The position numbers and the translations under genes are program-made. Shown one piece after another: positions 28,315 through 43,875 of a stretch of DNA of 64,000 nt. The notes under the pieces were generated by a model. It searched no databases, was not told the DNA's origin, and saw only the letters and a list, made by a program, of their open reading frames with translations. The stretch's first letter is position 1. Each line of letters starts with the position of its first letter. The stretch comes from Tunicatimonas pelagia (GTDB lineage: Bacteria > Bacteroidota > Bacteroidia > Cytophagales > Cyclobacteriaceae), in NCBI RefSeq assembly GCF_030506325.1, contig NZ_CP120683.1, positions 5,708,501 through 5,772,500 on the forward strand. Direction: 5' to 3'.

Positions 28315-28320
28315 ATTAAG

Positions 28321-28338
28321 GGGCAAACGAAAGGTCAA
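28321..28338 (+). repeat. Left terminal transposase-like site L1
   Basis: GGGCAAACGAAAGGTCAA lies 6 bp inside the left boundary. It matches the right terminal site R1 on the other strand (GGTCAAACAAAAAGTCAA) at 15 of 18 positions. Presumed transposase recognition site by analogy with Mu attL. Confidence 0.75.
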
Positions 28339-28434
28339 TAAGGGGGTAAAATTGATTTCTTTATTTTATAGGTGTAAGTGACTGATTGATAAAGCGTTAT
28401 GAGGGGATAAGAAAGTTTTTGACGAAAAGCTGGA

Positions 28435-28452
28435 GTTCAAACGAAAAGTCAA
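28435..28452 (+). repeat. Internal left transposase-like site L2
   Basis: GTTCAAACGAAAAGTCAA, 114 bp inside L1, same orientation. It is the inverted counterpart of R2 at 43829-43846, matching the full 18 bases. Confidence 0.8.
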
Positions 28453-28534
28453 CTTCTTCCGGTTTCTGCTGTTTTTGACAACTTTTAATGCAAAAAATGA
28501 GGGGATAAATTCCATTTACGCTATTTGACTTCCA

Positions 28535-29389
28535 TTATTCGGAAGGAGTATTTTTCGACCGACATTCTTCTTTGGATACACTCCACTTCTCATAAAACTT
28601 CTTTTCGTCCATTGTTGCACAGTCATATTCTTTTTCAATCTGTTGGCTATCGAGTGTACTTCCTTGTATCACCACTTGATATGCATGAGGGTATAAGGGA
28701 ACAATTATATTTTTAAGTAGCGTGTTTATATCTTTACTTATTGTCTTGAGTAATTCATCCATCGATTTGGCTTCTCCAAGAATTTGATCAACTGCTGTAA
28801 AAGCCTCATTTTCAGTTCTTTTACCATTAACAACCCCCATAAAAATCGCAGCCATCTCTATTCTATATGTATCATAGATATGCTCCAGAACTCTATTGAA
28901 ATCTCTATAATCAGGATAAAAGAAAGCCTTTAGTATTTCTAGTTTATTGGGTCTGCCTTTCCAGTATTCAATTTCCAAATGCATCACTTTCCTTATCTTA
29001 GAATTCTCCTCCTCATCGTCAGATAGATTATTAAATAACATGCTACTCGATGAGGCAGGCTGCTCTTTGCCTACTTTTTGACTTTTTTTTGTCCCGGACA
29101 GATTTGTGACACGATCCGTGACATTGGCAGTTTCAAATATGTCATTATTTTCATACTCTATAATTTCGTTAAGTATTTTTTCATCTAACTTTTTTGCAAT
29201 TAGAGTATTTAGATCGATTTCAAAAAAATCGGCAATTTTAACAAGATCGTTTATATCAGGCATAGATTTTCCGTGCTCATAGCTACTAATGGCACTTTTC
29301 TTCTTATCTAACAGATTTGCTAGATCGGTTTGAGTAGCTTTGCGGGCTTTTCTCAACAGTTTGATATTATTGGAAAAATGATTATCCAT
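28535..29389 (-). CDS. XRE-type prophage repressor
   Basis: 284 residues with an N-terminal XRE helix-turn-helix (residues 8-62; ATQTDLANLLDKKKSAISSY, then the NDLVKIADFFEIDLNTLI recognition). The remaining 220 residues are mixed charged helices with no recognised peptidase or other domain. It is divergent from the ner-like and transposase genes and shares a compact 86-bp control region with them, the normal layout for a Mu c-type repressor. Function as lysogeny repressor is inferred from position. Confidence 0.85.
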   Translation of the reverse strand: MDNHFSNNIKLLRKARKATQTDLANLLDKKKSAISSYEHGKSMPDINDLVKIADFFEIDLNTLIAKKLDEKILNEIIEYENNDIFETANVTDRVTNLSGTKKSQKVGKEQPASSSSMLFNNLSDDEEENSKIRKVMHLEIEYWKGRPNKLEILKAFFYPDYRDFNRVLEHIYDTYRIEMAAIFMGVVNGKRTENEAFTAVDQILGEAKSMDELLKTISKDINTLLKNIIVPLYPHAYQVVIQGSTLDSQQIEKEYDCATMDEKKFYEKWSVSKEECRSKNTPSE

Positions 29390-29413
29390 TATCTTTTTAT
29401 TGATCGATAATAA

Positions 29414-29444
29414 TTGACTTAAAGTACAAAATTAACTAACTTTG
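29414..29444 (+). promoter_or_regulatory. Bacteroidota-type promoter for the transposition operon
   Basis: TTG at 29414-29416 followed after 20 nt by TAACTTTG (29437-29444), which fits the Bacteroidota -33 TTG / -7 TAnnTTTG consensus. The -7 box sits in an imperfect dyad TTAAC(N9)GTTAA. ACTT-A-AAGT (29417-29425) and ACTTAAAAGT (about 29465-29474) are further short dyads, possibly repressor sites. The Ner-like start codon is at 29476. Confidence 0.65.
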
Positions 29445-29475
29445 TGTTAAAGGTAATAAATAAAACTTAAAAGTT

Positions 29476-29691
29476 ATGATTAACCGAAAAGAGATAAAGC
29501 ACGCATTGCCACACGGCAAGCTATCGGAAATAGCTAAAGAGGCTGGGGTCTCAAAACCTTCGGTCAGTATCTGGTTTGCCGGAAAGATCAACAGCGAACG
29601 AATCGAAAAGGCAGCTGTCAAAATCTATGTACAGCATAAAAAAGAGCGCAATAAGCTGAAGAAAGAATTGCAATCGGTAGAAAATTTGTAG
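29476..29691 (+). CDS. Ner/Cro-like small HTH protein
   Basis: A 71-residue protein. Residues 12-46 form a helix-turn-helix (LPHGKLSEIAKEAGVSKPSV, then SIWFAGKIN). The C-terminal half is a charged helix. It lies between the repressor control region and the transposase, 3 bp upstream of the transposase ATG, the position of Ner in Mu-like phages, where it modulates early transcription. Target is inferred. Confidence 0.75.
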   Translation: MINRKEIKHALPHGKLSEIAKEAGVSKPSVSIWFAGKINSERIEKAAVKIYVQHKKERNKLKKELQSVENL

Positions 29692-29694
29692 CAC

Positions 29695-31773
29695 ATGCGG
29701 GACGGGAAAAACTTTTTGATAGGAGATATACCTCATATTTCTCGAGAATACATGCGACGGCATGGTATCGAGGATGGTGCAATAAGGCAAGATCAACGGC
29801 GGGATCGTGAGAAAGGTACCAACCGTTGGAGCCAGAACTACATCCAATATAAAGACATACCTGGTCCTACAAAAGAATCACTTCCTGACCGGGAAAGCAT
29901 TGTTGCCGAAATTGAGCTTGAAGCAACTAAGAGCAAATTAGCTGGCCAAAATCAAAAGCTTAGAGAGCAAGTGTTTCGTTTAAACGAGGCAGTGTCAAAA
30001 TGGCAAAAACACCGGAATCAGGTAATGAATGATATACGCTGTAAGGATTTGACCTCTCACGAAATAAAGCAGGTATGTAGAAAAGTAGCTTTGTACCGAG
30101 AGCTACTAGTAATGAAAAAAGAGGGGGTGCGAGGAAGATTTGAAGCATACCAACAGGTTTCAATTACTAATTATAAGAAGTTCAAAAACGATTCAAGTTT
30201 ATCTAGAAAGTTAACTATAGCCGAACAGGACGTAGTAGGCGCAATACTCCATCAAGGTAGAGGAAACTCTAATTCTCGAAAAACAACTAAAGAACACGAA
30301 GAATGGATAATATTTTATTCTACCATAGGAAAGGCGTATTCACCCTCTCAGATTCTAGAGCGAGTGAATTGTTTGTGTGGCATTTACGAGCTTAACGAAA
30401 TAAGCCTTTCCAGTGTAAAGCGAGTGCGGAATATTCCGAACAATCATGAGCTTATTGAGGTGTTTGATAGAGATCAGAGCACGCGCACCACACTGAAACT
30501 TGCATTACCGCTTCATGCAGGTGACCAGTATCAGGTAGATGAATATAAGTTAGAATTCTATTATGATGATGAAAGAACCAATGGTAGTCAGTGGAATACC
30601 ATGTACCTATTTACGGTAATGGATGTTTACAGCCGGAAAATTGTGGCTTACAACTTTAACGAGGTAAGTGACCGTTGGCTATTTCTCAGTACACTTAAAA
30701 TGGCAGTAAAACTCTATGGTTTTTTACCTCACGAAATTGTCTCAGATAATCATTCAGCAAACCAAACCTTTGAGGTTAAGGATTTTAAAGATGCACTGGA
30801 TAAGCTAGAGGTTACATGGACAGTAGATAGCAACCCACGCAGGAAAGCAGTTCTGGAGCGATGGCACGACACTTTTCAGAATAGCATGAAACATTATTTT
30901 GGCTTTAAAGGAGGGTCGCCAAAAGACAAACGACAGGGTAGTAGACCTGCTGAACGCCTTCTTAAGCTATACACCAAACGAAGCAATGTCCGTGACCGAA
31001 ATGGTCTTATCCTTTTGGCAATGGAGGGAATTGAGCGGTACAATAATACCCCTTTACCCAAGCGCAAGGGAAAAACGCCCAATGAGCTATTTAAAGAGTC
31101 AAAAAAGCCTAATGTAGTTCCGGTAGATGATGAAACACTAATTAACCTGTTTTGGCTCAAGGCGGAAGAAACAATTAGAGATTCAAAAGTAGTATTTACA
31201 CGACAAAAGATAACGCATGAATACCCATTGGCTTTTGCTTCTCACGAAATCCGCCAGCAGTGGAATAATCAGAAAGTAATCGTGTGCTACGACGAGAAAG
31301 ATTACTCGGAAATATTTATTCTCGATCCATCTAACAGACGACTGATTACAAGCTTAAAAGAAATGCCTAATCTACACGGGGATAAAGCCAATCAGACCAA
31401 AGAAGATTTGGACTACATGGCTAAGATAGCGGCGAAAGACAAAGCCTATAATAACCATCTAAAGCAGCAAATTGAAAGTTTGGGAAGTAGCATTGTGTCT
31501 AGAATTACCCCTGATGCTTCTCACTATATGACTCATGGAAAAGAGGTTGCCCGACAAGCTGAGGACATTTACATGAGAAATGAGCTTATGGAAATTCAAG
31601 GAATTGATCCTGACAACATTAAACCTATCAATGAGAAAAGTGATCTGGAACTGAGTCCGGCGACTAGACCCATCCTAGCCCGTCAGGAGAAGGAGGGGCG
31701 AGCTATCAAAAACGCCTTCAAAGGTGATAGAAACCTGTCTATTTACATTCCTGATGAAGAGGATGAAGAATAA
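29695..31773 (+). CDS. MuA-type DDE transposase
   Basis: A 692-residue transposase. The N-terminal 250 residues carry charged helices and end-binding regions. The catalytic RNase H-like core spans about residues 270-400 with the DDE triad Asp282 (QVDEY), Asp351 (VSDNH) and Glu388 (VLERWHDTF). The residue after it, with KxxxKTPNELF (residue about 460), matches the Mu-type C-terminal beta-barrel region. Only 36 residues separate the second Asp from the Glu, unlike MuA with about 55, and closer to Tn552/IS481-type spacing. The residues look intact. It is transcribed with the ner-like gene. It should bind the repeats at each end and catalyse strand transfer. Confidence 0.92.
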   Translation: MRDGKNFLIGDIPHISREYMRRHGIEDGAIRQDQRRDREKGTNRWSQNYIQYKDIPGPTKESLPDRESIVAEIELEATKSKLAGQNQKLREQVFRLNEAVSKWQKHRNQVMNDIRCKDLTSHEIKQVCRKVALYRELLVMKKEGVRGRFEAYQQVSITNYKKFKNDSSLSRKLTIAEQDVVGAILHQGRGNSNSRKTTKEHEEWIIFYSTIGKAYSPSQILERVNCLCGIYELNEISLSSVKRVRNIPNNHELIEVFDRDQSTRTTLKLALPLHAGDQYQVDEYKLEFYYDDERTNGSQWNTMYLFTVMDVYSRKIVAYNFNEVSDRWLFLSTLKMAVKLYGFLPHEIVSDNHSANQTFEVKDFKDALDKLEVTWTVDSNPRRKAVLERWHDTFQNSMKHYFGFKGGSPKDKRQGSRPAERLLKLYTKRSNVRDRNGLILLAMEGIERYNNTPLPKRKGKTPNELFKESKKPNVVPVDDETLINLFWLKAEETIRDSKVVFTRQKITHEYPLAFASHEIRQQWNNQKVIVCYDEKDYSEIFILDPSNRRLITSLKEMPNLHGDKANQTKEDLDYMAKIAAKDKAYNNHLKQQIESLGSSIVSRITPDASHYMTHGKEVARQAEDIYMRNELMEIQGIDPDNIKPINEKSDLELSPATRPILARQEKEGRAIKNAFKGDRNLSIYIPDEEDEE

Positions 31774-31777
31774 AAAA

Positions 31778-31801
31778 AGCCGCTGGGACGGGATAGCGGC
31801 T
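31778..31801 (-). terminator. Hairpin between transposase and ATPase genes
   Basis: AGCCGCT / AGCGGCT with a 10-nt loop, preceded on the plus strand by seven A residues, so on the minus strand the hairpin is followed by a T-run. On the plus strand there is no T-run, so it may attenuate rather than stop the early operon. It could equally terminate antisense transcription. Confidence 0.5.
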
Positions 31802-31836
31802 CCTGTTAATGCTTGTAAAACCAAACAATAATAATA

Positions 31837-32703
31837 ATGACGAATTTAGTTGAAAAACATGACATTCAAAAGAAACTTGTTGTATATCAGCAAGAAACTG
31901 GGCTAAGTTATGGGCACATTGCTCAACAAGTAGGATGTAGTACAGCCATTATTAGCAACGTCGCCAACGGGAAGTTTGATAACATCAGCCCTGCTATGTT
32001 GCAAAAGGTCAATCAGGTAGTTACCTCTCAAAAGGAGAGTTTTCATGTCCTGACTACCAACAATTTCAATGATATTTTTAAGACCTGTCAACAGGCAAAA
32101 TCTCATCAATTTATGATTGGGCTGATTGGGGATACAGGACTAGGTAAAACCCTAGCCCTAAAAGAATTCTCCCGACGTAAGCAGGTCTACTATATTGAGT
32201 ACTGTCCAACTATGACTCCCAAGAACTTTTTTGAGGAGCTCCTAAAAGCAATGGGTGTAGCTTTCATCGGGTCAAAGCATGAAATGCTGAACCGGATTGC
32301 TGAGGAACTTAATGCGGTGAGAAATACCCTGTTAATCATTGATGAGGTAGGTCAAATGAGCCAAGCAATGTTTCAGTATCTACATACGCTACGAAACAAA
32401 ACTATGTTCAATGCCGGAATGGTGCTCTCTGGGATGCCTTACTTTGAAGAGTATCTCAAGAAGCTAGTCCGGCAGCAAAAGCAGGGGGCATCGGAGTTCT
32501 TTCGTAGAATTAATCTGTGGCAATACCTCAAGGTGCCCACTAAGAAGGAAAAGCGGAATATGTGTATGGCCTACGGTATTCATGATGAATCTGTCATTGG
32601 CGAAATGAATAAGTACCGCGACTTCGGAAGTCTGTACAATGGCATATTGTTTCATCAGCTATTAAACGCTCCACTCAAAGAAAAAGAGATCGCCACCCTT
32701 TAA
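31837..32703 (+). CDS. MuB-like AAA ATPase
   Basis: 288 residues with a short N-terminal HTH (residues 20-50; LSYGHIAQQVGCSTAIISNV). The AAA ATPase follows: Walker A GDTGLGKT at 98-105, Walker B TLLIIDEVGQM near 165-175, and a sensor-like ending. This is the composition of MuB and Tn7 TnsC-type target selectors, which deliver target DNA to the transposase. It lies 64 bp after the transposase. No motif is missing, so it should be functional. Confidence 0.9.
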   Translation: MTNLVEKHDIQKKLVVYQQETGLSYGHIAQQVGCSTAIISNVANGKFDNISPAMLQKVNQVVTSQKESFHVLTTNNFNDIFKTCQQAKSHQFMIGLIGDTGLGKTLALKEFSRRKQVYYIEYCPTMTPKNFFEELLKAMGVAFIGSKHEMLNRIAEELNAVRNTLLIIDEVGQMSQAMFQYLHTLRNKTMFNAGMVLSGMPYFEEYLKKLVRQQKQGASEFFRRINLWQYLKVPTKKEKRNMCMAYGIHDESVIGEMNKYRDFGSLYNGILFHQLLNAPLKEKEIATL

Positions 32704-32713
32704 CGAACTACTC

Positions 32714-33106
32714 ATGAAACCACGAAAGCTAGAAACCTACGCCCAAAAAGCGCAAGCCTTAGCCGAACTCACCGAGCGGTTGAAGGAAGTACCCAATCCC
32801 GATATTCAGGATGCACTCCGTTTGGCGAAGCTTTGCCATGAAAAGATGCTACAGCATAAGCGAGCGATTCAGCAGCGAGAAAAGACCAATCGTCGATTAG
32901 AGAAAGCGATCAAGAAGGAGAAAGAAAAAGTCCGTATGCTTGAATCCGGCATTTACCAACATAGCTGCTCCTCAGAAACTATGTCAGAAATTATTCAACT
33001 ACAACGAAAACAAATTGCTGAACTGGAAGCCGAGCGAACCCGACTGAAAGCCAAGAAAAAAGCGCATTTACCTTTAAAATTCAATCCATTTATTCACCAA
33101 AACTAA
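32714..33106 (+). CDS. Coiled-coil phage protein
   Basis: 130 residues made almost entirely of charged heptad-like helix (for example RAIQQREKTNRRLEKAIKK). It ends with a basic tail. No family recognised. Its position 10 bp after the ATPase places it in the early operon of the element. Confidence 0.55.
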   Translation: MKPRKLETYAQKAQALAELTERLKEVPNPDIQDALRLAKLCHEKMLQHKRAIQQREKTNRRLEKAIKKEKEKVRMLESGIYQHSCSSETMSEIIQLQRKQIAELEAERTRLKAKKKAHLPLKFNPFIHQN

Positions 33107-33109
33107 TTT

Positions 33110-33499
33110 ATGATGATTCGATTTAATCAAGAAGAAAACCAGTACGAAGTAGTCATTCCACTTATAAACGGAGTACAGGAGGTAGCTACCTATCAAGAGG
33201 CTATCCAGGCGGTTGTAGAGGTCTGCAAGTATCACGACAGTGATGTATTTATCAACCCGCACTATGCTTACCAACTGATTAACCTGATGCACGTATTCAG
33301 CCTAGACATATGGCAAATGAGTGCGATAGAGAAAACGGGGGTGCTGGAACGAACAACTCATTTTGATACCCCTCCGAATATTACCAAGCTAGAAGAGGAG
33401 TTAGCAACCTTAAAACAACTGCTACAGAAAAAGGGGGTATACAATCCTACAGCAGATATGGCGCAGCCAGCTAGTACATGTGATGCACCCTTAAAGTAA
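33110..33499 (+). CDS. Hypothetical phage protein
   Basis: 129 residues, beginning MMIRFNQEENQYEVVIPLIN. The first half is strand-rich, the second half helical, ending with a Lys/Glu segment. The gene starts 3 bp after the preceding stop, which supports a real operonic gene. No function inferred. Confidence 0.6.
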   Translation: MMIRFNQEENQYEVVIPLINGVQEVATYQEAIQAVVEVCKYHDSDVFINPHYAYQLINLMHVFSLDIWQMSAIEKTGVLERTTHFDTPPNITKLEEELATLKQLLQKKGVYNPTADMAQPASTCDAPLK

Positions 33500-33552
33500 G
33501 GTCATTGATTCAACATATCACTATTAATTTTTTTTACTTAATCACCGCAATC

Positions 33553-34041
33553 ATGTCAGAAAGAAGAAGAACTTCAGAACAAAACCGTAAACTTCACCTG
33601 TTACTCCAGGATTTGGGATTGATGGACGAAAAGCCCTCCCTCGCCTTAGAATTTTCTAGGGGGCGAACTGAGCGAACCTCCCAACTAAGCCAGCAGGAAT
33701 GTCGGTTACTGATTGACCACCTTGACCAATTTGCTTCTAAGACTGTTCGCTCGGCTGAAATCATGCGCCGTAAAGTCTTTGTGTATTGCTATGCGTTGGG
33801 CTGGATCAGTCCGGCCCGTAGCCCCCAGGATCACGCCTTTAACCGAACGGTAATCGATAACTTCCTATTAAAGCGGGGTTATCGGAAAAAGAGACTTCAT
33901 GAGTACACTTATGAAGAGCTTCCGAAGCTACTGAATCAGTTTGAGCAAATTAGCAAGCACAATGAGGCTAGTCAGCATAACAAAAAAGTGGCCTCTATGC
34001 TACAGGAGCTTAATATTTCGGTGGCTGCCAAGGTTGCCTAA
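33553..34041 (+). CDS. GemA-like (gp16, DUF1018) protein
   Basis: 162 residues, starting at the ATG at 33553 (the longer frame adds a hydrophobic leader that does not fit). The sequence TSEQNRKLHLLLQDLGLMDE followed by ECRLLIDHLDQF and HEYTYEELPKLLNQF resembles GemA/gp16 of Mu, which modulates host gene expression and phage DNA processes. The similarity is by eye, so moderate. Confidence 0.6.
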   Translation: MSERRRTSEQNRKLHLLLQDLGLMDEKPSLALEFSRGRTERTSQLSQQECRLLIDHLDQFASKTVRSAEIMRRKVFVYCYALGWISPARSPQDHAFNRTVIDNFLLKRGYRKKRLHEYTYEELPKLLNQFEQISKHNEASQHNKKVASMLQELNISVAAKVA

Positions 34042-34055
34042 GCTATTTTTAAAGT

Positions 34056-34096
34056 AGGGTTTACGTGTTCATAAAGGATGCTTAAACCCTTTTTTA
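34056..34096 (+). terminator. Possible rho-independent terminator
   Basis: Stem AGGGTTTA / TAAACCCT with a 19-nt loop, then a run of seven T residues. The loop is long, but the T-run and location between the early genes and the next HTH gene fit a terminator. Confidence 0.55.
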
Positions 34097-34120
34097 TTCC
34101 CTACTAACCCCAATGAAAAC

Positions 34121-34486
34121 ATGGCCTATTCCAAAGAAACAAAACAACACGCCAAGCAGCTTTTTGAGCAAGGTAAACCAATCGCGGTTATTGCTTCACG
34201 GATAGGTTGTGACGAAAAAACGGTTCGTAATTGGATAAGTAAATACAATTGGCGGGGTGATGGGATACCAGCCGAGCACCCCACAATACCAAATCGGTCG
34301 GAAGCTACCGCCCTTGTGCGCAAGAAGCACCAATATATTTGGGAGCAATATGAGAAACTTATCTGGGACAGCGAACACCAAGTACGCCGTAACAAACGCG
34401 ACGTTATTCAAAAACTGGCTAATGAATTTTTTGTACGCCCAGTTACTGTTCGTAAAATCATTGCTAAAAAACAGGCCCAGCGATAA
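34121..34486 (+). CDS. HTH protein, possibly small-terminase-like
   Basis: 121 residues. An N-terminal helix-turn-helix (residues 10-45; PIAVIASRIGCDEKTVRNWI) matches the HTH_23/resolvase group used in small terminase subunits of several phages and in late regulators. A charged helical part follows with a second HTH-like element near the C-terminus (RPVTVRKII). No large terminase partner follows. Whether it is a packaging or regulatory protein is open. Confidence 0.55.
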   Translation: MAYSKETKQHAKQLFEQGKPIAVIASRIGCDEKTVRNWISKYNWRGDGIPAEHPTIPNRSEATALVRKKHQYIWEQYEKLIWDSEHQVRRNKRDVIQKLANEFFVRPVTVRKIIAKKQAQR

Positions 34487-34652
34487 GCCATTCCTTTCTC
34501 ATTCGTTACGCCCTCTCTTCTCTAATTGCCGAATTGTCCTAAATCCCGCTCGCCTTTACCAGAAAATACACTATCTACGTAATCCGGTGATTTTTTCCTT
34601 GCTATTCTCTCACTACTTCTTTCTCTTTGCTTTAAGACCAAAAAAAATACGG

Positions 34653-34907
34653 ATGAACCTAGCTACCCCAACCGACCCAGGGAGTTCAGAAGAGAAGTAC
34701 CGACAGTCCCGGCGTAAAAACATGGAAGTGCGCTACCGAAAGATACAGCAGCGCGAGCGGGAACTTGCTTCCCAAACCATCGAGGGGTTGTCGCTAACCA
34801 GTCATCAAGTTAAGCAAAAACTGATGAGCGAATTTGGGATTAGCTACCAGACCGTTTGCACTGCGTTGGCTTATCAATTCAGGTCAAAACAAAACAGGCA
34901 ATTTTAA
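34653..34907 (+). CDS. Small HTH-like protein
   Basis: 84 residues using the ATG at 34653. A longer frame would begin inside the previous gene and is rejected. The C-terminal half (LTSHQVKQKLMSEFGISYQT) is HTH-like and ends with a basic tail. The upstream 166 bp from 34487 are pyrimidine-rich and noncoding, which may house a promoter. Function unknown. Confidence 0.5.
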   Translation: MNLATPTDPGSSEEKYRQSRRKNMEVRYRKIQQRERELASQTIEGLSLTSHQVKQKLMSEFGISYQTVCTALAYQFRSKQNRQF

Positions 34908-35074
34908 AGCTCCCTACGGAGGGCTTGGTCAAATGAAAGGAACACTGCCTAAAAAATGCGATCGTCGATTCTGTGGGATTTTAAACACCTTTTAAACGCT
35001 CCTACGAAAGTGGGTAGCGGTTGGGCGGTAATCAATGTTTGACAACGAGGGCGATACCCTTAAATTTTAGAAAA

Positions 35075-36056: not shown

Positions 36057-36350
36057 ATGGCAAGAAACTCAAAAAAAATCTCTACAGTAGTGACCCTAAC
36101 GGGGGATGCTGACTCGATTATAGCAGCTTTTGATACTTGGAAACAGGATGGGGTCACCGTGAAGAAACTCTCTGTGCCCGCAGATTTGCTGGCTAATGCG
36201 CTCACAGAAGAAAATGTGGAGGTAAAAGTATCCCTACACGGGGATATGGAAGCAGTCTACGGCAGAGCGTATGATGTTTTAGAAAAAGCCAGTGTGCGGC
36301 GGTATACTAGCGAATATGATGGTGTAGCCGTTGACCACACCAGCTATTAA
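36057..36350 (+). CDS. Hypothetical phage protein sharing a motif with the protein at 36,733
   Basis: 97 residues. It contains STVVTLTGDADSIIAAFDTW, then DGVTVKKLS, a pattern repeated in the C-terminal part of the protein at 36733. No family recognised. The preceding ORF stop and terminator suggest its own promoter at 35990-36056, though no box stands out. Confidence 0.6.
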   Translation: MARNSKKISTVVTLTGDADSIIAAFDTWKQDGVTVKKLSVPADLLANALTEENVEVKVSLHGDMEAVYGRAYDVLEKASVRRYTSEYDGVAVDHTSY

Positions 36351-36383
36351 CGCAACCGCTAGTTAGCCTTTAAAGAGCGTGTT

Positions 36384-36749
36384 ATGGCAGAAAAAACATA
36401 CTTCAAACCAGCAAAACACACAGGTTGGATGGAGATGATCGGCCCGGAAAAGTGGGTGCTAGCCTTCGCTGCGGGGTTTAGCATGGAAAACCTAGCCGTA
36501 GATTCCATTTGGATGCGGGCTGTTTCGCAGACCGATGCCCTGAAGAAATTAGAAAAGATTGGCTATACCTCCTACTTTCTGATATTGAAGACTGCCCGCA
36601 GCCCGCAGGAGGAAGAGATACTCAGGCGGCTTCTTCAGGCTGCCCGGCATCATAAAATCCGGTTCTTCCCCTTATCCGAGGAGGAGCTACCTGACCACAA
36701 AAAACTCCGTTATTTAATGCAAAAGTGTACCCATGCCCTCATCGATTAA
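36384..36749 (+). CDS. Hypothetical phage protein
   Basis: 121 residues, alpha/beta by appearance, with KTARSPQEEEILRRLLQAAR as the clearest helix. Its stop overlaps the next gene by 17 bp, supporting a coupled operon. No family recognised. Confidence 0.6.
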   Translation: MAEKTYFKPAKHTGWMEMIGPEKWVLAFAAGFSMENLAVDSIWMRAVSQTDALKKLEKIGYTSYFLILKTARSPQEEEILRRLLQAARHHKIRFFPLSEEELPDHKKLRYLMQKCTHALID

Positions 36750-37119
36750 ATACTTTAAGCGAACGGACATTTCCCGAAGATTTAGGCTTAGTGGGCCTGT
36801 TCAACTGTTACAAGCGTTGCTGACCCACTTAGCACAATCAGGCCTGTTGCAATCTACCGAGTTTAGTGGGCACTACTCTGTAGAACCAGTAAGCAACAAT
36901 ATGCTTACTAAAGCAGTAGCTCAGATCAACGTGCAAATGAAGCGCGCTTACCAGTCGCTTTACGCTTCTCACCAAGAAGACGACTGGGGTGAAAGGCCGC
37001 CTTCAAACCGTATTCCTTGCAGCCATTATCAAGTGCAACTAACGGGCGATCCCGATAGGATCAATAGTTACCTCAATCGTTTTGTACGCGATGGCGGCAC
37101 CATTCAAGTTCAATCATAA
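36733..37119 (+). CDS. Hypothetical phage protein with the shared LTGDxDxI motif
   Basis: 128 residues. The C-terminal SHYQVQLTGDPDRINSYLNR and DGGTIQVQS echo the N-terminal motif of the 97-residue protein at 36057, suggesting one small domain used twice. The N-terminal half is helical with basic residues. Function unknown. Confidence 0.6.
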   Translation: MPSSIKYFKRTDISRRFRLSGPVQLLQALLTHLAQSGLLQSTEFSGHYSVEPVSNNMLTKAVAQINVQMKRAYQSLYASHQEDDWGERPPSNRIPCSHYQVQLTGDPDRINSYLNRFVRDGGTIQVQS

Positions 37120-37143
37120 ATAGTTCTTATAAATACTATCATC

Positions 37144-37782
37144 ATGAAAAAACAGCTTTATTTCGATAAACCAGCCTACGAACACGCGCTTCGTGGAGCG
37201 AAGTCCCTATTAGAAACTCTCCAGGAATCAGTGGATGAGATTAACCGCCTTCAACTCAAAGAGTCGCTTACATCGGAAGATTTACTCCAGCTACTCAAGA
37301 ACCCGAAAACCTTCATAGTTGATGCTTTCTTGGAAAAGCAAGGGGCCGGTATTGCCGCCTTACCCCTGAAGAAGGAAAAAATGATCGACCTGCTAGACCT
37401 ACCCGAAGGCTGTGAAGAATGCGTATTGTGTATTCAAAAAGCAAAACAGGTATTCCAGGAAAGCAATAACTTGCACCAAGTGCTACGGTCTATTGACAGT
37501 TACGAACTTCAAAATAGCCGGGTACAGGTAAAACAATCTGCTAAAGATCGGTTAGCTGAATTCTTTACCTTTTACATCACTAGCGAGCGGCAAGAAAAGG
37601 TTCACGCCCAGTTGAAAATAATTTCGGAGGCCATGAACAAATTAGCGGATATGGGGGTGATGGGTAACGAGGCGCGCGCCACCTTTATTAAAGAAGCTCT
37701 ACTACCTCAATCAAGTAGCTTGGGCTATCATAATCCTGCTGAGACGATTCGGCCTAACCATCGCTTTATTATCAAAAAGTAA
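37144..37782 (+). CDS. Hypothetical phage protein with a cysteine pair
   Basis: 212 residues, mostly helical. A CEECVLC segment at about residues 92-97 might bind metal, but the spacing fits no known finger. It ends with a basic tail (HRFIIKK). The position before the small helical protein and tape measure gene resembles that of tail assembly proteins, yet sequence gives no proof. Confidence 0.55.
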   Translation: MKKQLYFDKPAYEHALRGAKSLLETLQESVDEINRLQLKESLTSEDLLQLLKNPKTFIVDAFLEKQGAGIAALPLKKEKMIDLLDLPEGCEECVLCIQKAKQVFQESNNLHQVLRSIDSYELQNSRVQVKQSAKDRLAEFFTFYITSERQEKVHAQLKIISEAMNKLADMGVMGNEARATFIKEALLPQSSSLGYHNPAETIRPNHRFIIKK

Positions 37783-37802
37783 TCCCTTCAACCCTAGCAC
37801 TC

Positions 37803-38129
37803 ATGCCTTCACTGAAAATGTCACAAGACCCTTCCGATCTAGAACTCATGCTGCGTGAGTTCGCTGAAAAGATCGGCCCTAACTTTGATTTGATAGATTT
37901 CTTTCGCCATCGTGTCTCTCAGGCCGGGACTGCTTACCTGGAGGTGTGTAAGAATATTGCTGTATTAGAAAGGCAAAAGCAAACCAGTAAAGCGGATAAA
38001 AAGAAACTCAAGGAGTTGCGCCAGCAGCGGCAAAAAATCCTGAATTCCTGCAAACGGATAGAGTGGTGTACGGAGGAAATGATCGCTTTTTCTAAAGATA
38101 GCCAACATGCTGAAAAAGAAGAAAAGTAA
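37803..38129 (+). CDS. Small helical protein upstream of the tape measure gene
   Basis: 108 residues, all helical and strongly charged (for example KQTSKADKKKLKELRQQRQK). In phages the gene directly ahead of the tape measure is often a tail assembly chaperone, but this product lacks recognisable homology and has no sign of a programmed frameshift into another frame. Role inferred from position only. Confidence 0.5.
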   Translation: MPSLKMSQDPSDLELMLREFAEKIGPNFDLIDFFRHRVSQAGTAYLEVCKNIAVLERQKQTSKADKKKLKELRQQRQKILNSCKRIEWCTEEMIAFSKDSQHAEKEEK

Positions 38130-38165
38130 CGATTACCCTTACGATACTTATTTACGCTAGTACCC

Positions 38166-40208
38166 ATGCCAAAAGTCTATGAATATACGCTCAAGCTTCG
38201 CGATAACGTTAGCCCTACGCTACAGAAGCTCAACAAACTAGTAGGGAAGTCCAATACTACTTTTGGCAAGTTGAAGCGTATGGCGGGCCGAGCCGGAAAC
38301 GCCTTATATGATGCGGGACGAAAAGGGGCGAAAGGTATGCGGGAGTACGTGAACCGACTCTCTGAAGCAGCCAAGAAAACCCGGGTATTCAATAAGCAAG
38401 TAAACGGGCTTCGGAATACTGTTATCGGATTTCTATCGGTGACTGCCGGGGCGCAATTGTTTGCAGGAGTCGTAAACGCTACTGCCCGAATGGAAAGCCT
38501 CAATAATGCCATCGCCTTTGCTTCAGGAAGCACCCAGGAAGCGCGTAAGAATTTAGAGTTTCTGGATAACACCGTAGATGCGCTTGGTTTGGATTTGATG
38601 GCCACCAAAGATGGTTTTCGGCTTTTTGCGGGAGCGATGCGCGGCAGTAAACTGGCGGGGGAGGCGACCCGTGAAATTTTTGAATCCGTTGGTATTGCCA
38701 GTGCCTCCATGAACCTGACGGCTGACCAGACAAAGGGAACGTTCAAAGCACTCTCTGATATGATGGGCAAAGGGAAAGTGGAGGCAGAGGAGTTGCGAGG
38801 ACAATTGGGTGAGCGGATTCCAGGGGCCTTCAATATTGCCGCGCGGGCAATGGGAATGACCAGTGGGGAGTTAGACAAATTTATGAGTGATGGCAAGCTG
38901 CTAGCAGAAGATTTTCTACCCCGTTTTGCCCAACAACTACGCCGTGAGTTTGTCGGAGGGCTAGACGATGCTACCAACTCACTTCAGGCGAATCTTAATC
39001 GGGCTAGAAATGAGTGGACTCGGTTACAAGTATTCTTTGGGGGTATGTTAGCCCCTACCATTGTGAAAGTCGCCAAAGCACTGGGAACGATGCTGCTGTA
39101 TGTTAAAGAGAACTGGGATACCATCAAACGATACAGCTCCTATCTGGCCGGGGCAATCGGTATTTTTGCCGCCTATAAAGTTACCTTTATAGGGGTTGCT
39201 AGTGCCCTTAAATTGGCGACTACTGCAACGGCTTTATTGCGGGGGCAAATGACCTTGCTGAACCTGGTAGCCGCAGCGAACCCAATTGGCATGGTCACCA
39301 TTGGAATTATGGCAGTAGCCGGGGCGGCTGTCTGGGCATACAATAAATTTGAAACATTCCGAGGGGGAGTGTGGGGGCTATGGGAAGCCTTCAAAGAAGT
39401 GTTTGCTAATATTGGTACACTGGCGACAGAAACTTTTGGGGGATTGAAAGAAATGATAGCGGGAGCTCTGTCCTTTGATGCCAAACGTATGATGAAGGGT
39501 ATTGCCCAAGCGAAACACGCTTCTAGCGTATTTGGCAACCAAGTTGCTTCTAAGTACAGAAAGGGGTACCACGAAGGCACACAAAAAGAACCCCTGAGCC
39601 TGGATATGCTACTCGGCAACCTTCCTTCTACCGATAAATACCGTGATAAGCTCAACGAGCTGTTAGCCGGACTAGGTAATGAATTTGATACATCTACTTT
39701 CACTTCCGTACCGAAAAAACAGCAAAAGGTAAAAAACAATCCGTTCCAACGCTACGAGGAATTATTGTCACTGGCTAGTAACCAGGGTTCACTGGGGGCT
39801 AACCAGCGCAAGGGCTTGCAAAGCTCGATCATTAGTGGGTACGAGCAACTGGAGGGAATGCTCGCTAAGTTTCGCGTAGCGGAGCGCACGGGGCAAAAAT
39901 TCAAAAGCCTGGAAGGTATCAATCGGGGGCGGGTAGAATCTACCCTGGGGCAACTCAGTGGGTACTATGCCGATGCGGTTAATAGCCAGAATGCGGAGAA
40001 AGAAGCGGAAGAAGAGCGGCGAGGGTTGGAAGCCATTACAGGGGGAGGCAAGAAAGTTACGAACATCTATATCCAACAACCCAAGATGGCCGAAACGATT
40101 GAAATGCACGTACAAGATGCCACCGGGGGAGTCGAAGAAGTGAGTGAGAAATTTGAGGAGTACTTCTATAAAATGCTGAATGACTTTAACCGAAATGGAG
40201 GACAATAA
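38166..40208 (+). CDS. Tape measure protein
   Basis: 680 residues. A basic helical N-terminus is followed by the tape measure domain at about residues 95-290 (hallmarks ALSDMMGKGKVEAEELRGQL and AMGMTSGELDKFMSDGKLLA). Two hydrophobic segments at about 325-350 and 365-400 follow, then a soluble tail that ends in a coiled coil. In phages it sets tail length and forms part of the injection channel. At 680 residues it would fit a short tail. No other major tail gene was recognised, so it is the strongest structural phage signature left. Confidence 0.88.
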   Translation: MPKVYEYTLKLRDNVSPTLQKLNKLVGKSNTTFGKLKRMAGRAGNALYDAGRKGAKGMREYVNRLSEAAKKTRVFNKQVNGLRNTVIGFLSVTAGAQLFAGVVNATARMESLNNAIAFASGSTQEARKNLEFLDNTVDALGLDLMATKDGFRLFAGAMRGSKLAGEATREIFESVGIASASMNLTADQTKGTFKALSDMMGKGKVEAEELRGQLGERIPGAFNIAARAMGMTSGELDKFMSDGKLLAEDFLPRFAQQLRREFVGGLDDATNSLQANLNRARNEWTRLQVFFGGMLAPTIVKVAKALGTMLLYVKENWDTIKRYSSYLAGAIGIFAAYKVTFIGVASALKLATTATALLRGQMTLLNLVAAANPIGMVTIGIMAVAGAAVWAYNKFETFRGGVWGLWEAFKEVFANIGTLATETFGGLKEMIAGALSFDAKRMMKGIAQAKHASSVFGNQVASKYRKGYHEGTQKEPLSLDMLLGNLPSTDKYRDKLNELLAGLGNEFDTSTFTSVPKKQQKVKNNPFQRYEELLSLASNQGSLGANQRKGLQSSIISGYEQLEGMLAKFRVAERTGQKFKSLEGINRGRVESTLGQLSGYYADAVNSQNAEKEAEEERRGLEAITGGGKKVTNIYIQQPKMAETIEMHVQDATGGVEEVSEKFEEYFYKMLNDFNRNGGQ

Positions 40209-40220
40209 ACCGTCAACAAT

Positions 40221-40751
40221 ATGAGTATAGTATCACCTTCCCAACCGTATCACCATTTGCTAAAAGAATCATCCTCGTTTTTCTGGGCCAAAGTCCTGAC
40301 GGTCGCCCCTGACCAAGTACATTGTTCGGTAGCACCTGTTAATGAAGCAGGTTCCTCACCGCGCCAAGTACGGCTCCGACCTGCTAGTGAACCAGCCGGG
40401 CAAGGGCTATTCTTACTTCCTGAAGTTGGCTCGTTTGTAGGAGTAGTTTGGCTTTCCGATACACCAGAAGAATCCTGTATCGGTCTGTACACGGAAGTGA
40501 AGGAGCTTCGGTTCGTGCCCACTCCAGGTTGCTCTTTCACTAGCAATAGTCAGAAGATCACGGCTACCGTAGATGATAAGCATCTTCAACTATCCAGTGA
40601 AAAGCTATCCATCCAGACCAAACAGGGGGAGTTGAAAGAATTGAGTGATAAAGTGTTTTCATTGGCTAAGAAAACCTGCCCTAGTGATCTAACCAAAGAG
40701 CAAAAGCAGTTACTAGGGATAGCGAAGAAGCTGGTGGCAGCCCTTTCATAA
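40221..40751 (+). CDS. Possible baseplate/spike OB-fold protein (gpV-like)
   Basis: 176 residues. The central part PEVGSFVGVVWLSDTPEESC fits the OB-fold of phage baseplate assembly/spike proteins such as gpV, and the downstream beta-rich stretch (KITATVDDKHLQLSSEKLSI) fits the beta-helix that follows. It starts 12 bp after the tape measure gene stop, in line with tail gene order. Homology is by eye and the C-terminal helix is unusual, so this remains tentative. Confidence 0.5.
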   Translation: MSIVSPSQPYHHLLKESSSFFWAKVLTVAPDQVHCSVAPVNEAGSSPRQVRLRPASEPAGQGLFLLPEVGSFVGVVWLSDTPEESCIGLYTEVKELRFVPTPGCSFTSNSQKITATVDDKHLQLSSEKLSIQTKQGELKELSDKVFSLAKKTCPSDLTKEQKQLLGIAKKLVAALS

Positions 40752-40815
40752 TAGGTTAGCCCCACGCTCTATTACCAATGATTGTTTGTATGAGTGGGAA
40801 AAAAAAGACCAAAAG

Positions 40816-41030
40816 ATGTCAACTAACAAGCGAAGCTCACTATCGATATTGCTACGGGTGAAGCTGAAGATACTCCAGATATAGATGAAAGTAAAAACCC
40901 CTCTGCTGTTGAATTAGGTAGGCTAGGAGGTAAGGCAAGAGCTAAGAAGCTTTCACCCGAAAGGCGAAAGGAAATCGCTAAAGAGGTTGCTTTGAAACAT
41001 TGGGGGGAAGAGCTAGTCAAAGATGCTTAG
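40816..41030 (+). pseudogene. Frameshifted small LGRLGGKARAKKL-type protein
   Basis: The ATG at 40816 begins MSTNK, after which the frame should shift by one base near 40825-40832 to give AKLTIDIATGEAEDTPDIDE, then SAVELGRLGGKARAKKLSPE and a C-terminus ending WGEELVKDA at the stop at 41028-41030. This C-terminal motif (glycine/lysine repeat plus SPERRKEIAKEVA) is common to small KGG-type proteins found near toxins or phage genes. A single missing A in AACAAG explains the break. The stop overlaps the end of the P63C gene on the other strand. Confidence 0.65.
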
Positions 41031-41600
41031 TTGAAATGGCAATCCATATACTTTTGCATGTTCCTTTTCAAACTGACTCCAAGTTTTACAACGCTTCATT
41101 ATCACTTCTGATTCTTTAATATAATCTTCCAACTTTGTTACTTTTTCAGGAGTCAGAAATTGGAAATGCTTAAATAATCTGATGCCTATTTTGTCATACT
41201 TATTTTGATGCTCTAGTACTGGTAATACTTCTTTTGGAAAACGACCATATATGATGTCAATGGTATATTTAGCCACGACCTGTGGTTTTTTAGATATTTT
41301 TCCGTTTTTGGGTATCTCCCAACCATTTAGACGAAATACCTCTTTATACCAACCTTGTGTAAATCTAGATTTATAAGTGTTGATCTTGTCATCAATGTAT
41401 TCAGCTAGCTCTTTAAGGTCTATAGTTTCTCCACTGATTAGTTTAATCTTCTCAGCCCTTTGTTCAAGGGCTTTATCAGAACCTTTACGTTGAATTAGTA
41501 AGTCAGGGCTAATTGCCAATTGCTTCCGTAAGGCATTATCTTCCTGTTCTTTTCTTAACTGCTCTACGGTTTTCTTACTTGAATTTTTAATCTTTTTCAT
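41013..41600 (-). CDS. P63C-domain protein
   Basis: 195 residues. Following a basic N-terminal helix, residues about 80-170 match the P63C domain: FTQGWYKEVFRLNGW, IDIIYGRFPKEVLPVLEHQN and IRLFKHFQFLTPEKVTKLED. P63C occurs in phage-borne proteins, often fused to BRO/KilA-type DNA-binding domains; here it stands alone beside an ImmA peptidase. The start overlaps the upstream gene stop by 14 bp, so the two are one translational unit. Function unknown. Confidence 0.75.
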   Translation of the reverse strand: MKKIKNSSKKTVEQLRKEQEDNALRKQLAISPDLLIQRKGSDKALEQRAEKIKLISGETIDLKELAEYIDDKINTYKSRFTQGWYKEVFRLNGWEIPKNGKISKKPQVVAKYTIDIIYGRFPKEVLPVLEHQNKYDKIGIRLFKHFQFLTPEKVTKLEDYIKESEVIMKRCKTWSQFEKEHAKVYGLPFQLSIFD

Positions 41601-42792
41601 AGTTTAGATTGTATATTTTATCGTTATAAAATTTTGCAACCTCTGATGCTGACATTTTATGATTTATCTCCTTAACCGCCCACAAATACCTATTAATATC
41701 TGGCAAGAATTCTTGTAACCATCCCCAACTATCTCTTTCTAGAGCTATCATTGTATATACTATGCTTGGATGAACATGATTAAGCCTAGCATATTCCTCA
41801 ATAAATATTCGGTTATTATAGTGAGGTAAAACCTCTTGAACCTTCTCGTCGGAGAACAAGTAATCTTTTGCGAATTGATTAGCGACATCTTCAACCTCCA
41901 CTTCTGTATAAAAATCAGTTTTATCAGAAATGTGGTATGAGTTAATCAAAATATCATCCCAATCGAAAAGGACATGATGTAATTCATGTAAAAGAGCAAA
42001 CCATATTGTAGCGTAATTACCCTTATAATCGGACAAAACAATGGACGGTTTTTTGTTGACTGAAAATGTAGCACCTCTGATGTGTAGTTTTTTAAATTTT
42101 GGAAGATATATAACGGTGATACCCATTCTGTATAAGACTTTAATAACTTCCCAGATTCCTTTCTCGACACTCATTGAATGCCATCGAATTGTTGGAAAAT
42201 ATTCGATCAAAGCTTGCCTATCATACGGGATAGGGTTCTGTATTTTTCGAAAAACTTTTCGGGCATACTCTATCCAGTAGTTAAGCACCTGAACATCACT
42301 AGCAAGCTTTGCTGAACTGTAAGCTGGATTCACTACATCCTTTCTATAGTCAAAAATAGAATCGTAATTAAATATCCTAACTAACTCCCTCTCCACGTGA
42401 TCTAGATCAGTTGCATCATCAATGACACCTTCATTTTTCAACTCTTTAAGGTTAAAATTTTCTGCTATAAATTTTCTTCTCTCGAGAGTGTGGATTTGCT
42501 CCTCATGTGGTTTTTTTAATGATTCTAGGTAAAGATTAACAGCCTCACCTACTGGAATTTCTAAAAATCGTGACAACTTCTTTAATGATATTATATCTAC
42601 TCTGCTACCTGTTCCTTTGAGGAGTCCGTGTAACGCTCGACTCTCCATTTGCATAATTTCAAGGGCTCGAGTCTGATTAATTTGTAATTTTCCTAACTGC
42701 ATTTCCCACCTCTCTTTCAATCCTCTTTTATCGTCATCATTATAGGATTGCAAAAGATTGCTAAGATCAATACCGTCCAAATCGTCTGCCAT
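41587..42792 (-). CDS. HTH-ImmA/IrrE-family metallopeptidase
   Basis: 401 residues using the ATG at 42792 (an upstream TTG at 42816 lies within the operator). The N-terminal 90 residues resemble an HTH (LQINQTRALEIMQMESRALH). The C-terminal part is the ImmA/IrrE zinc peptidase: HELHH at residues 269-273 and EDVANQFAKDYL at about 301 supply the metal ligands. ImmA-type proteases cleave phage repressors or regulators. The partner, a P63C protein, is unusual. The tandem is inside the Mu-like element, on the strand opposite to the late genes, and could regulate lysogeny, act as a toxin-antitoxin pair or confer immunity; none is proven. Confidence 0.82.
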   Translation of the reverse strand: MADDLDGIDLSNLLQSYNDDDKRGLKERWEMQLGKLQINQTRALEIMQMESRALHGLLKGTGSRVDIISLKKLSRFLEIPVGEAVNLYLESLKKPHEEQIHTLERRKFIAENFNLKELKNEGVIDDATDLDHVERELVRIFNYDSIFDYRKDVVNPAYSSAKLASDVQVLNYWIEYARKVFRKIQNPIPYDRQALIEYFPTIRWHSMSVEKGIWEVIKVLYRMGITVIYLPKFKKLHIRGATFSVNKKPSIVLSDYKGNYATIWFALLHELHHVLFDWDDILINSYHISDKTDFYTEVEVEDVANQFAKDYLFSDEKVQEVLPHYNNRIFIEEYARLNHVHPSIVYTMIALERDSWGWLQEFLPDINRYLWAVKEINHKMSASEVAKFYNDKIYNLNYEKD

Positions 42793-42795
42793 AAG

Positions 42796-42813
42796 ATTTG
42801 TAGTTTTACAAAT
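42796..42813. promoter_or_regulatory. Operator-like palindrome, proximal copy
   Basis: ATTTGTAGTTTTACAAAT, perfect 7-bp arms ATTTGTA/TACAAAT with a 4-nt centre, 3 bp upstream of the peptidase ATG. Identical to the copy at 42859. Confidence 0.8.
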
Positions 42814-42858
42814 CAAAAATAGCTATTTAAAGCTAATAAGCAATGCTTTTAGTGCAAT

Positions 42859-42876
42859 ATTTGTAGTTTTACAAAT
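42859..42876. promoter_or_regulatory. Operator-like palindrome, distal copy, overlapping a -7 box
   Basis: The same 18-bp palindrome, 63 bp (six helical turns) from the proximal one. On the minus strand it overlaps TATATTTG, a TAnnTTTG -7 box for the peptidase operon, although a -33 TTG at correct spacing is not obvious. The HTH of the peptidase, or an element repressor, is the likely binder. Confidence 0.75.
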
Positions 42877-42899
42877 ATAATCATTTACCTTCAAGTTGA

Positions 42900-43662
42900 G
42901 GACACTTCGCTATGGGTAAATTCACGTATTGCGGATATTTCCATCAATACCGTTACTAAACTTCTGGTTAACTTTGGTAGAACCTGCATAGAGTTTCATA
43001 ATAATCATGTGGTAAACGTGAAGTCTAAAGGCATTCGGTGTTATGAAATCTGTCGTTCTGCTATGCAAAGCAAAAGAACGTACTAGAGGAAATGAAAGGT
43101 AGCGGATCGGGAGGTGTGTGGACGTGGACGGCTATTAATGCTAACACTAAGCTAACTGTACCGGCACGTGGGTAGTCGCGATACTGATTCGGCTAATCTA
43201 TTTATTTATGAAGGATGTGGCAGGCTGTTTATCTAATAGAGTGCAATTAACTATCGATGGACACAAAACCTATTTGAACGCTGTTTATGATGCTTTTGAA
43301 GGCATCATTGACTATGCTCAACTTACTGAAATATTCTGAAAAGAAGTAGGCACCTGTTAAGTGTATTGGTATCAAAAAAAGGAATCTTTGGCAATCCAGA
43401 TGAAAAACATGTATCTACGAGTTACGTAGAGTGGCAAAATCTAACGGTGCGAATACATATGAGGAGGTTTACCCGTTTGACTAATGGATTTAGCAAGAAG
43501 CTGGAGAATCATTGCTATCCAACTGCCCTGCAATTTCTCTACAACAGTTGGGTGAAGATTCACAAAACATGGAGAGTAAATCCAGCGATGGAAGCAGGAC
43601 TAACCAAGCGACCGATGGAAATCGTAGATATAGTTAAATTGATTGAAAAAGATTCAAACTGA
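42900..43662 (+). pseudogene. IS1-type transposase relic
   Basis: Broken into several frames. Visible fragments include TKLLVNFGRTCIEFHNN, then GSGGVWTWTAINANTKL, and the C-terminal part from 43378: GNPDEKHVSTSYVEWQNLTV, RIHMRRFTRLTNGFSKKLEN, NPAMEAGLT. These match IS1-family transposases with their conserved TSYVERQNLT...RRFTRLTNxFSKK region. Multiple stops and shifts show long decay. Terminal inverted repeats were not recognised. It lies inside the Mu-like element, between the operator region and the right end. Confidence 0.8.
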
Positions 43663-43828
43663 GACACTACCTATATTCCCGAAACACCTTGTCACCCTTC
43701 TAGGTTGAAAGATAGTTATTTCGTAATTTTACGAGTAAATTAGAAAAGTGCAATTTCAATACATATTTTTCTAAATGTTTAAAAATTGTACTTTATTAGA
43801 AGCCAACCCCCTTACTATATTTTTTTTA

Positions 43829-43846
43829 TTGACTTTTCGTTTGAAC
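43829..43846 (-). repeat. Internal right transposase-like site R2
   Basis: Minus-strand GTTCAAACGAAAAGTCAA, identical to L2, in inverted orientation. Confidence 0.8.
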
Positions 43847-43851
43847 CAAAG

Positions 43852-43869
43852 TTGACTTTTTGTTTGACC
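43852..43869 (-). repeat. Right terminal transposase-like site R1
   Basis: Minus-strand GGTCAAACAAAAAGTCAA, 6 bp inside the right boundary and 23 bp from R2. The distance from the boundary mirrors L1 on the left. Confidence 0.78.
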
Positions 43870-43875
43870 GAATAC

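Follow-up and report, generated by a model that had tools for sequence, protein, structure and literature searches.

Compact Mu-like elements without head genes in Bacteroidota: candidate transposition-based phage satellites

Is a Mu-like element that lacks a phage head the debris of a prophage, or a mobile unit in its own right? The question is raised by W, an element at positions 28314-43876 of a 64,000-nucleotide stretch of the Tunicatimonas pelagia genome (the window; G000:C1:5708501-5772500, with G and L codes denoting sampled genomes and loci). W carries a Mu-type transposase and ATPase with a few structural genes, and neither capsid, portal nor large terminase was recognised in it. Here we describe W, seven compact relatives and the full phages with which they share genes, and conclude that the W family probably consists of transposition-based phage satellites.

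Mobility and missing head genes of W

As a Mu-like element W is complete, down to end repeats and a target duplication. A second copy lies at G000:C1:2400499-2416062; alignment of the fetched stretch matched it to window positions 28313-43876 over 15,564 bp with 0 mismatches, in agreement within 1-2 bases with the borders first proposed (28315-43875). The flanks of the two copies are unrelated to each other, and both sites show a 4-bp target-site duplication, ATAG in the window (28310-28313 and 43877-43880) and CGTG on both sides of copy 2; a 5-bp duplication, ATAGT, occurs in the window copy only. An assembly duplication as the source of copy 2 was ruled out by the different flanks and the separate duplications. 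Each end bears two ~15-bp, MuA-site-like repeats (CAAACGAAAAGTCAA-like) that are inverted between the ends: the left end spans 28314-28560 on the plus strand, with repeats at 28324-28338 and 28438-28452, and the right end 43829-43872 on the minus strand. Genome searches with phrog_310 and TMP_3 each matched just the two W copies. Two mismatch-free copies in unlike flanks thus indicate that the compact form of W is itself the mobile unit, and that it moved recently.

The proteins of W were scanned with Pfam, PHROGs and NCBIfam (genes lie on the plus strand unless noted). The MuA-type DDE transposase (29695-31773; phrog_310 1.1e-41, rve and alignment) has D282, D351 and E388, which do not vary across an alignment of five sequences, and we take these residues to be its DDE triad. 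It is followed by a MuB-type ATPase (31837-32703; phrog_296 3.7e-44, AAA_22 and TniB). Repeats, 4-bp duplication and open MuA and MuB genes all confirm what the original prediction, made from the sequence alone, had listed as present. W has the MuA, MuB, inverted end repeats and short target duplication of a Mu-like transposable phage; HMMs for such a phage's own head and packaging genes gave no hit in it.

The HEADLESSNESS test, run with controls, applied hidden Markov models (HMMs) for 21 phage gene types to six-frame stretches at E 1e-3. Large terminase (TerL), portal, adaptor, head morphogenesis and major capsid protein (MCP) were all found in 4/4 full phages that had supplied no seeds (G1332b, G1260ph, G836 and G411), and the same five HMMs matched 0/8 compact elements (W and its relatives). 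In W, 18 of the 21 HMMs had no match, including those for TerL, portal, capsid, neck, tube, sheath and endolysin, which upholds the claim that capsid, portal, large terminase and lysis genes are not recognisable. Tube, sheath, hub-D, gp46, baseplate-J and endolysin HMMs matched none of the eight elements; fibres were not searched by HMM. The Mu portal family PF06074 was not found in G000, though no control gave a match either. PF03237 terminase was likewise not found there, a negative that says little since the two full-phage TerLs tested match no Pfam family; a TerL alignment search was used instead. The original prediction had allowed that W's unassigned proteins might turn out to be capsid, portal or terminase, and no such match came from Pfam, PHROGs, NCBIfam or the HMMs.

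What remains of a virion is a short set of genes. W encodes a ClpP-type prohead protease (35021-35923; phrog_2976 1.4e-41; NF045542 2.1e-32, just under cut-off), whose best match is in G578 (5e-30; G836 6e-16), and a 680-residue tape measure protein (TMP; 38166-40208; TMP_3 4.3e-28; phrog_2335 1.8e-54), whose best match is full phage G836 (4e-55). A tail protein at 40221-40751, labelled by its spike position, was recovered at 8.3e-11 among 1650 proteins by an HMM built on nine proteins in that position; one belongs to the compact G679 and the other eight to further Mu-like loci. This family has no name in Pfam, PHROGs or NCBIfam, and the W protein gave two weak matches (E 0.6) against phages by tblastn and one (E 1.4) against solved structures. 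A 108-residue protein directly upstream of the TMP (o108; 37803-38129) occupies the tail assembly chaperone position and is labelled by position only; an HMM of TMP-upstream genes did not match it. Upstream of the protease lies a TerS-like helix-turn-helix (HTH) protein (Terminase_5, gpP-like; 34121-34486; PF06056 4.1e-9, over cut-off), which matches TerS genes of full phages by phmmer at 3e-4 to 2e-3. Of the structural set first proposed, protease, TMP and a possible spike, the domain libraries recognise only the first two; the spike is a positional label, and the TerS-like protein has to be added.

Compact relatives and the phages that share their genes

Searches with MuA, counting the own or centre genome, matched 6 of 395 genomes of the phylum, 22 of 390 of the order, 235 of 395 of the class (with phrog_310, many matches being short) and 20 of 400 of the order of G379, Mucilaginibacter rigui. 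Contig scans were added, and selected matches were annotated by phmmer against labelled phage proteins. Three kinds of Mu-like loci emerged: full phages, with TerS-TerL-adaptor-portal-head genes on the minus strand and then protease and capsid; transposons with MuA and MuB only; and eight compact elements, namely W, G379, the IMG/VR contigs L134 and L136, G1245, G1260, G1332a and G679, a 5-kb locus (L137) being omitted from the count. The seven headless relatives of W measure ~7-12.5 kb, with approximate borders for G379, G1260, G1332a and G679; the L136 contig starts at ner and ends at o105. By reading, the ~12.5-kb M. rigui element is inserted in an apparent amidohydrolase gene. The relatives surfaced through whole-genome six-frame searches and clade alignments. 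Scans for close relatives of W's MuA in genome and viral contigs, and of its MuB in viral contigs, returned none, and its TMP found one contig (29% over residues 110-290).

The usual compact order is repressor, Ner, MuA, MuB, TerS-like HTH, NinB-like, protease, o224, o105 and one to three tail genes. The compact order of W had been suggested as worth seeking in other Bacteroidota, and a similar one indeed recurs in M. rigui, L134, L136, G1245 and G1260. Protease and o224 are missing from G1332a and G679, and W has its TerS-like gene downstream of the NinB-like one. Protease is present in 6/8 elements and TMP also in 6/8 (W, G379, L134, L136, G1260 and G679). G1245 and G1332a carry DUF6046 instead of a TMP, the equivalent gene of full phage G499 being a 'baseplate hub' in PHROGs. 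L134 has, besides its TMP, a homologue of the full-phage gene upstream of the TMP (chaperone position; a PHROGs family without assigned function), and L136 has a neck protein (Phage_tail_S). The HMM hits of the L134 chaperone-position gene and of the G679 spike-position gene to themselves are no evidence, because both were HMM seeds. PHROGs bore out the G499 labels portal, sheath and hub, and MCP weakly (6e-10); its 138-residue 'tube' is ambiguous, matching 'major head protein' best and 'tail protein' next. L134 was considered as a packaged genome and rejected, since ~126 bp on each side lie outside the region it has in common with G1245, so that it looks like a chromosomal copy.

The compact elements' tail genes, whether TMP, baseplate hub or neck protein, match those of full Mu-like phages. 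The TMPs of L134 and G379 have no detectable similarity to each other, and the G379 TMP belongs to the type found in the G1260 phage (1e-129). In four of five comparisons the TMP is shorter than its best sampled full-phage homologue (573 v 641, 1185 v 1242, 526 v 1242 and 635 v 912 residues), W having the longer one (680 v 662); L136, whose TMP is spread over two open reading frames (ORFs), did not enter the comparison.

Some compact elements share a cell with such a phage. The TerL alignment search of six compact-element genomes matched in G1260 and G1332, and also in four control genomes, two of which (G940 and G1330) had contributed no sequence to the query. The G1332 compact element has a single structural gene, DUF6046, which shows 82% protein identity and 78% DNA identity with its counterpart in the co-resident full phage (E 3e-128; next labelled match 6e-17), with 224 further bases at 82%; the two MuAs are remote (6e-23). 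In G1260 the compact protease, TMP and o104 match the co-resident phage at 6e-50, 4e-105 and 1e-33, and seven DNA stretches of 33-343 bp are 78-89% identical. Among the DNA shared in G1260 is a ~119-bp segment, 89% identical between L164 (G1260:C15, reverse complement 10147-10263) and the phage on G1260:C31; it lies between the element's listed ORFs and could be a regulatory or packaging site.

Among the ORFs searched, o224 occurs only in compact elements and in none of the sampled full phages. A five-member o224 HMM ranked W's o212 (37144-37782) as the best non-member of 1650 proteins (4.5e-4), and hhalign aligned the two at 24% over 168 columns (E 0.0012, probability 19%). Predicted models of o212 and the M. 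rigui o224 have a similar helix and strand order at mediocre pLDDT (64.5 and 66.2). Foldseek returned nothing at E < 0.001 for the o212 model against a viral library or the M. rigui o224 model against the PDB, and tblastn of o212 found no match in phages. From HMM, hhalign and predicted secondary structure, o212 is probably a distant member of the o224 family.

A MuA tree of 41 rows places G1332a, G379, L136, L134 and G1245 in a clade of their own (100/100) that contains no full phage and that eight MuA/MuB-only rows join at 91/87; the larger group around it also takes in W and G1260, neither at a resolved position. G679 branches within a set of four full phages (100/100). This tree, the second of two, omitted G422, G1000b, G849 and G875, the first three of which lie on short contigs. 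Of its rows, G892, G412 and G408 (no labelled head gene in the fetched part) and G1361 (only tail genes) were left unclassified and G615 was read as MuA/MuB-only; all five lie outside the five-member clade. The original prediction had named, as evidence against itself, full-length homologues with head genes at a deletion point of the element; this applies in part to one relative, G679, given its place inside a clade of full phages.

Ratios of non-synonymous to synonymous substitution (dN/dS) were estimated by Nei-Gojobori on three pairs of relatives, W having only its identical copy. The values, all rough, are 0.08, 0.11 and 0.14 for the protease, 0.18 and 0.10 for o224, 0.10 and 0.14 for the TerS-like gene (one pair saturated), 0.16 for o161, 0.04 for o105 (one pair saturated) and 0.10 and 0.06 for MuA. 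Such ratios indicate that the retained genes other than the TMP are not decaying in the tested relatives.

The remaining Mu-like loci offer observations of their own. MuA/MuB-only transposons include L102 (G915), L049 (G688), L020 (G109), L129, L163 (G1471), L165 (G1406), L166 (G1251) and L168 (G1151); by reading, some adjoin a resolvase-like gene, and they represent a MuA branch that does without phage genes. Full phage G718 (L055/L056, G718:C35) carries at joined 19271-22885, minus strand, a second TMP, its upstream gene and a spike-position gene besides normal tail genes; the extra TMP and spike-position protein are homologous to the sole structural genes of the compact G679. In full phage G411:C34 (L114+L123, joined 31524-33026) the same 174-residue spike-position ORF starts twice in tandem. 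In full phages G836 (joined 14726-16714) and G411 (15679-17445) the TMP belongs to the head block on the minus strand, with neck genes on one side and head-morphogenesis genes on the other.

A satellite reading and its rivals

Because a similar headless layout is retained by relatives in other bacteria, W is probably a parasite that travels in the particles of ordinary Mu-like phages. By gene content, the family has no autonomous virion production, and its own set of genes is conserved from genome to genome, as in phage satellites. Helper dependence, packaging and chimeric particles are what we infer from this. When an active full-length Mu-like phage is in the cell, the element would replicate by MuA/MuB transposition, and its TerS-like protein would steer the helper's large terminase onto element DNA. 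The prohead protease and the o224/o212 protein may alter helper head assembly, and the element's TMP or hub may substitute for the helper part, giving a chimeric tail in the manner of the PLE satellites. For W, the likely helper would be a phage with a ClpP-type protease and a G836-like TMP. We see about an even chance that the elements are, as this scheme has it, Mu-derived satellites parasitising other Mu-like phages, replicating by transposition, bringing their own TerS-like protein, prohead protease, o224 and interchangeable tail parts, and forming chimeric particles from helper heads and tubes.

Several observations weigh against a satellite. The TerL alignment search gave no match in G000, G379, G1245 or G679, so that in 4/6 compact-element genomes, that of W among them, no TerL of this phage type was found and helpers are not generally resident. 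The genes shared with co-resident phages could stem from phage types common in these hosts rather than from dependence. W has no close relative in the sampled genomes and contigs, and the MuA tree does not resolve its placement. With G679 inside a full-phage clade, headlessness arose at least twice, one element having originated separately. G1245 and G1332a have no TMP, that of L136 is split over two ORFs and that of G1260 is short; the N-terminal parts of the G379 and L136 TMPs are only 48% identical with dS saturated, and several other dS values exceed 1, which is why the ratios are rough. TerS similarity is mainly in the HTH, the o212-o224 link is weak, and PHROGs leaves the 'spike' and 'chaperone' families unnamed, so both labels are positional. 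L136, an IMG/VR contig, lacks both element ends.

The elements might instead protect their hosts, with partial structural genes acting as dominant-negative decoys that poison head or tail assembly of infecting Mu-like phages. They would then spread by transposition within the cell and by unrelated means of transfer. Interference with tail assembly has been reported as a mode of defence (Tai; available part of PMC11364771), W has candidate PD-Lambda-2_B-like cargo, the structural genes match phages in the same genomes, tail genes differ between elements, and full phage G718 carries an additional spike-position protein in one module with a further TMP and the gene upstream of it. A decoy would nonetheless need less than a protease, a TMP of nearly full length and a TerS-like protein, and the repressor/Ner pair suggests an inducible cycle. 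We consider interference unlikely as the explanation, and it and piracy are not mutually exclusive. It is more doubtful still that full Mu-like phages repeatedly lost their head genes and persist as self-transposing elements with the other structural genes on the way out. The nesting of G679 in full phages (100/100), the L136 TMP in two ORFs, the short G1260 TMP and a MuA/MuB-only branch that lives without phage genes would all suit such relics, as would a TMP that is not among the genes with signs of selection (48% identity, dS saturated). Yet dN/dS of 0.08-0.18 for protease, o224, TerS-like gene and o161 already strains that account, and it sits poorly with the five-member headless clade, a similar retained set alongside dissimilar TMPs, an o224 not found in sampled full phages, and tail genes shared with a co-resident phage. 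The original prediction had favoured a streamlined element or satellite over a random deletion relic; the identical second copy, the headless MuA clade, purifying selection in relatives and gene sharing with co-resident phages agree with it, and a random relic is unlikely.

Two further accounts invoke a particle of W's own. Five small ORFs without a family at 36057-38129 could in principle build a head from unrecognised proteins. The largest encodes only 212 residues, its model is mostly helical (pLDDT 64.5) with no viral fold found, and W has no TerL or portal candidate whereas 4/4 controls do, so a hidden head is very improbable. A tail-derived device, either a tailocin or an injection system, had also been put forward, and TMP and spike-position protein are what such a device would share with W. 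Here the prediction is not supported: no tube, sheath or baseplate-wedge HMM matched in any of the eight compact elements, nor did hub-D, gp46, baseplate-J or endolysin, and the tube, baseplate and lysis genes of a tailocin were not found in W by HMM search. We give a tail device next to no credence.

If the satellite reading is right, tail-manipulating satellites have an origin unrelated to PLEs, in an independent Bacteroidota lineage that has a transposase in place of a site-specific recombinase and tail genes in common with co-resident phages. It would also establish a satellite type living by transposition. The literature searched, which lacks most subscription papers, yielded no Mu-like or transposable phage satellite family and no earlier description of a compact headless Mu-like family of Bacteroidota. 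The question of tail parts becomes testable in environmental hosts such as Mucilaginibacter, and annotations reading 'incomplete Mu-like prophage' may hide functional satellites.

Other genes of W and comparison with known systems

The left part of W begins with a Cro/CI-type repressor (28535-29389, minus strand; HTH_19/HTH_3, phrog_2967) and a Ner-like small HTH protein (29476-29691; by phmmer it matches the gene at this position in compact relatives, with 6e-10 for L134). Downstream of MuB lie proteins of 130 (o130; 32714-33106) and 129 residues (o129; 33110-33499), neither with a convincing family, and a NinB-like early protein (33505-34041; PF05772 9.2e-5, just under cut-off; phmmer to G1260 9e-22) that is conserved in compact and full elements. 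Between protease and o212 are proteins of 97 (o97; 36057-36350), 121 (o121; 36384-36749) and 128 residues (o128; 36733-37119), all without a family. By phmmer, o97, o121, o128, o108, o130 and o129 have no relatives among the sampled loci. Near the right end, two minus-strand genes form the cargo: a P63C-domain protein (41013-41600; PF10546 6.2e-17) and an M78/ImmA-type peptidase (41587-42816; PF06114; PADLOC PD-Lambda-2_B 5.5e-21), a candidate anti-phage protein. The two adjoin, the P63C protein having no PADLOC match, and the pair is possibly an anti-phage system. An IS1-type transposase remnant (43366-43662; PF03400 0.013, under cut-off) lies inside the element in both identical copies; the description of W as uninterrupted thus holds for the phage-type genes and not for this end.

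The nearest full-length counterparts are Bacteroidota Mu-like phages. Bacteroides p00 and Porphyromonas phage008a share with W a repressor, MuA, MuB, protease and TMP, with homologous early genes; unlike W, they measure 43.1 and 34.6 kb and have TerL, portal, adaptor, capsid, tail and lysis genes. The block of head and packaging genes on their minus strand is missing from W. SaPI/PICI and P4 satellites integrate by a site-specific recombinase (a tyrosine integrase in PICI/SaPI) and have a similar size class, a repressor switch, TerS and head-assembly modifiers. W resembles them in these last four traits and differs in its DDE transposase, no site-specific recombinase being recognised: the 20 W proteins in this check included neither a tyrosine integrase, as in PICI/SaPI, nor a serine recombinase, as in PLEs. 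Nor were the own capsid and packaging genes of capsid-forming PICIs found in W by Mu-like head HMMs, Pfam or PHROGs. AH14b is a 16.8-kb prophage that seems to parasitise AH14a, according to the available part of PMC4936722. As a small prophage using another phage's capsids, it is likened to W by this description and not by gene content. We claim no membership of the PLE, PICI or P4 families for W.

PLEs integrate by a serine recombinase in Vibrio cholerae. In the available part of PMC12987554, the PLE satellites of Vibrio phage ICP1 are described as using helper capsid proteins and encoding a TMP, a tail assembly chaperone (TAC) and a baseplate hub. The PLE TMP and hub replace the helper's parts in chimeric tails shorter than the helper's, and an anti-phage gene is carried. 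Replacement of helper tail parts was thereby demonstrated in 2026 for one satellite family; the authors suspected a broader trait and already recorded putative tmp genes in other satellites, including some capsid-forming PICIs. Set beside the TMP, TAC and hub of that source, W has a TMP and a spike-position protein, L134 a chaperone-position gene and a TMP, and G1245 and G1332a a hub-family gene without a TMP. In gene content the compact Mu-like elements thus resemble PLEs, as described there, carrying TMP and baseplate hub genes, though rarely both in one element. They differ in moving by MuA/MuB with a prohead protease, a TerS-like gene and o224, and in host and helper types, the host of W belonging to the same class as Mucilaginibacter, unlike the PLE host Vibrio cholerae.

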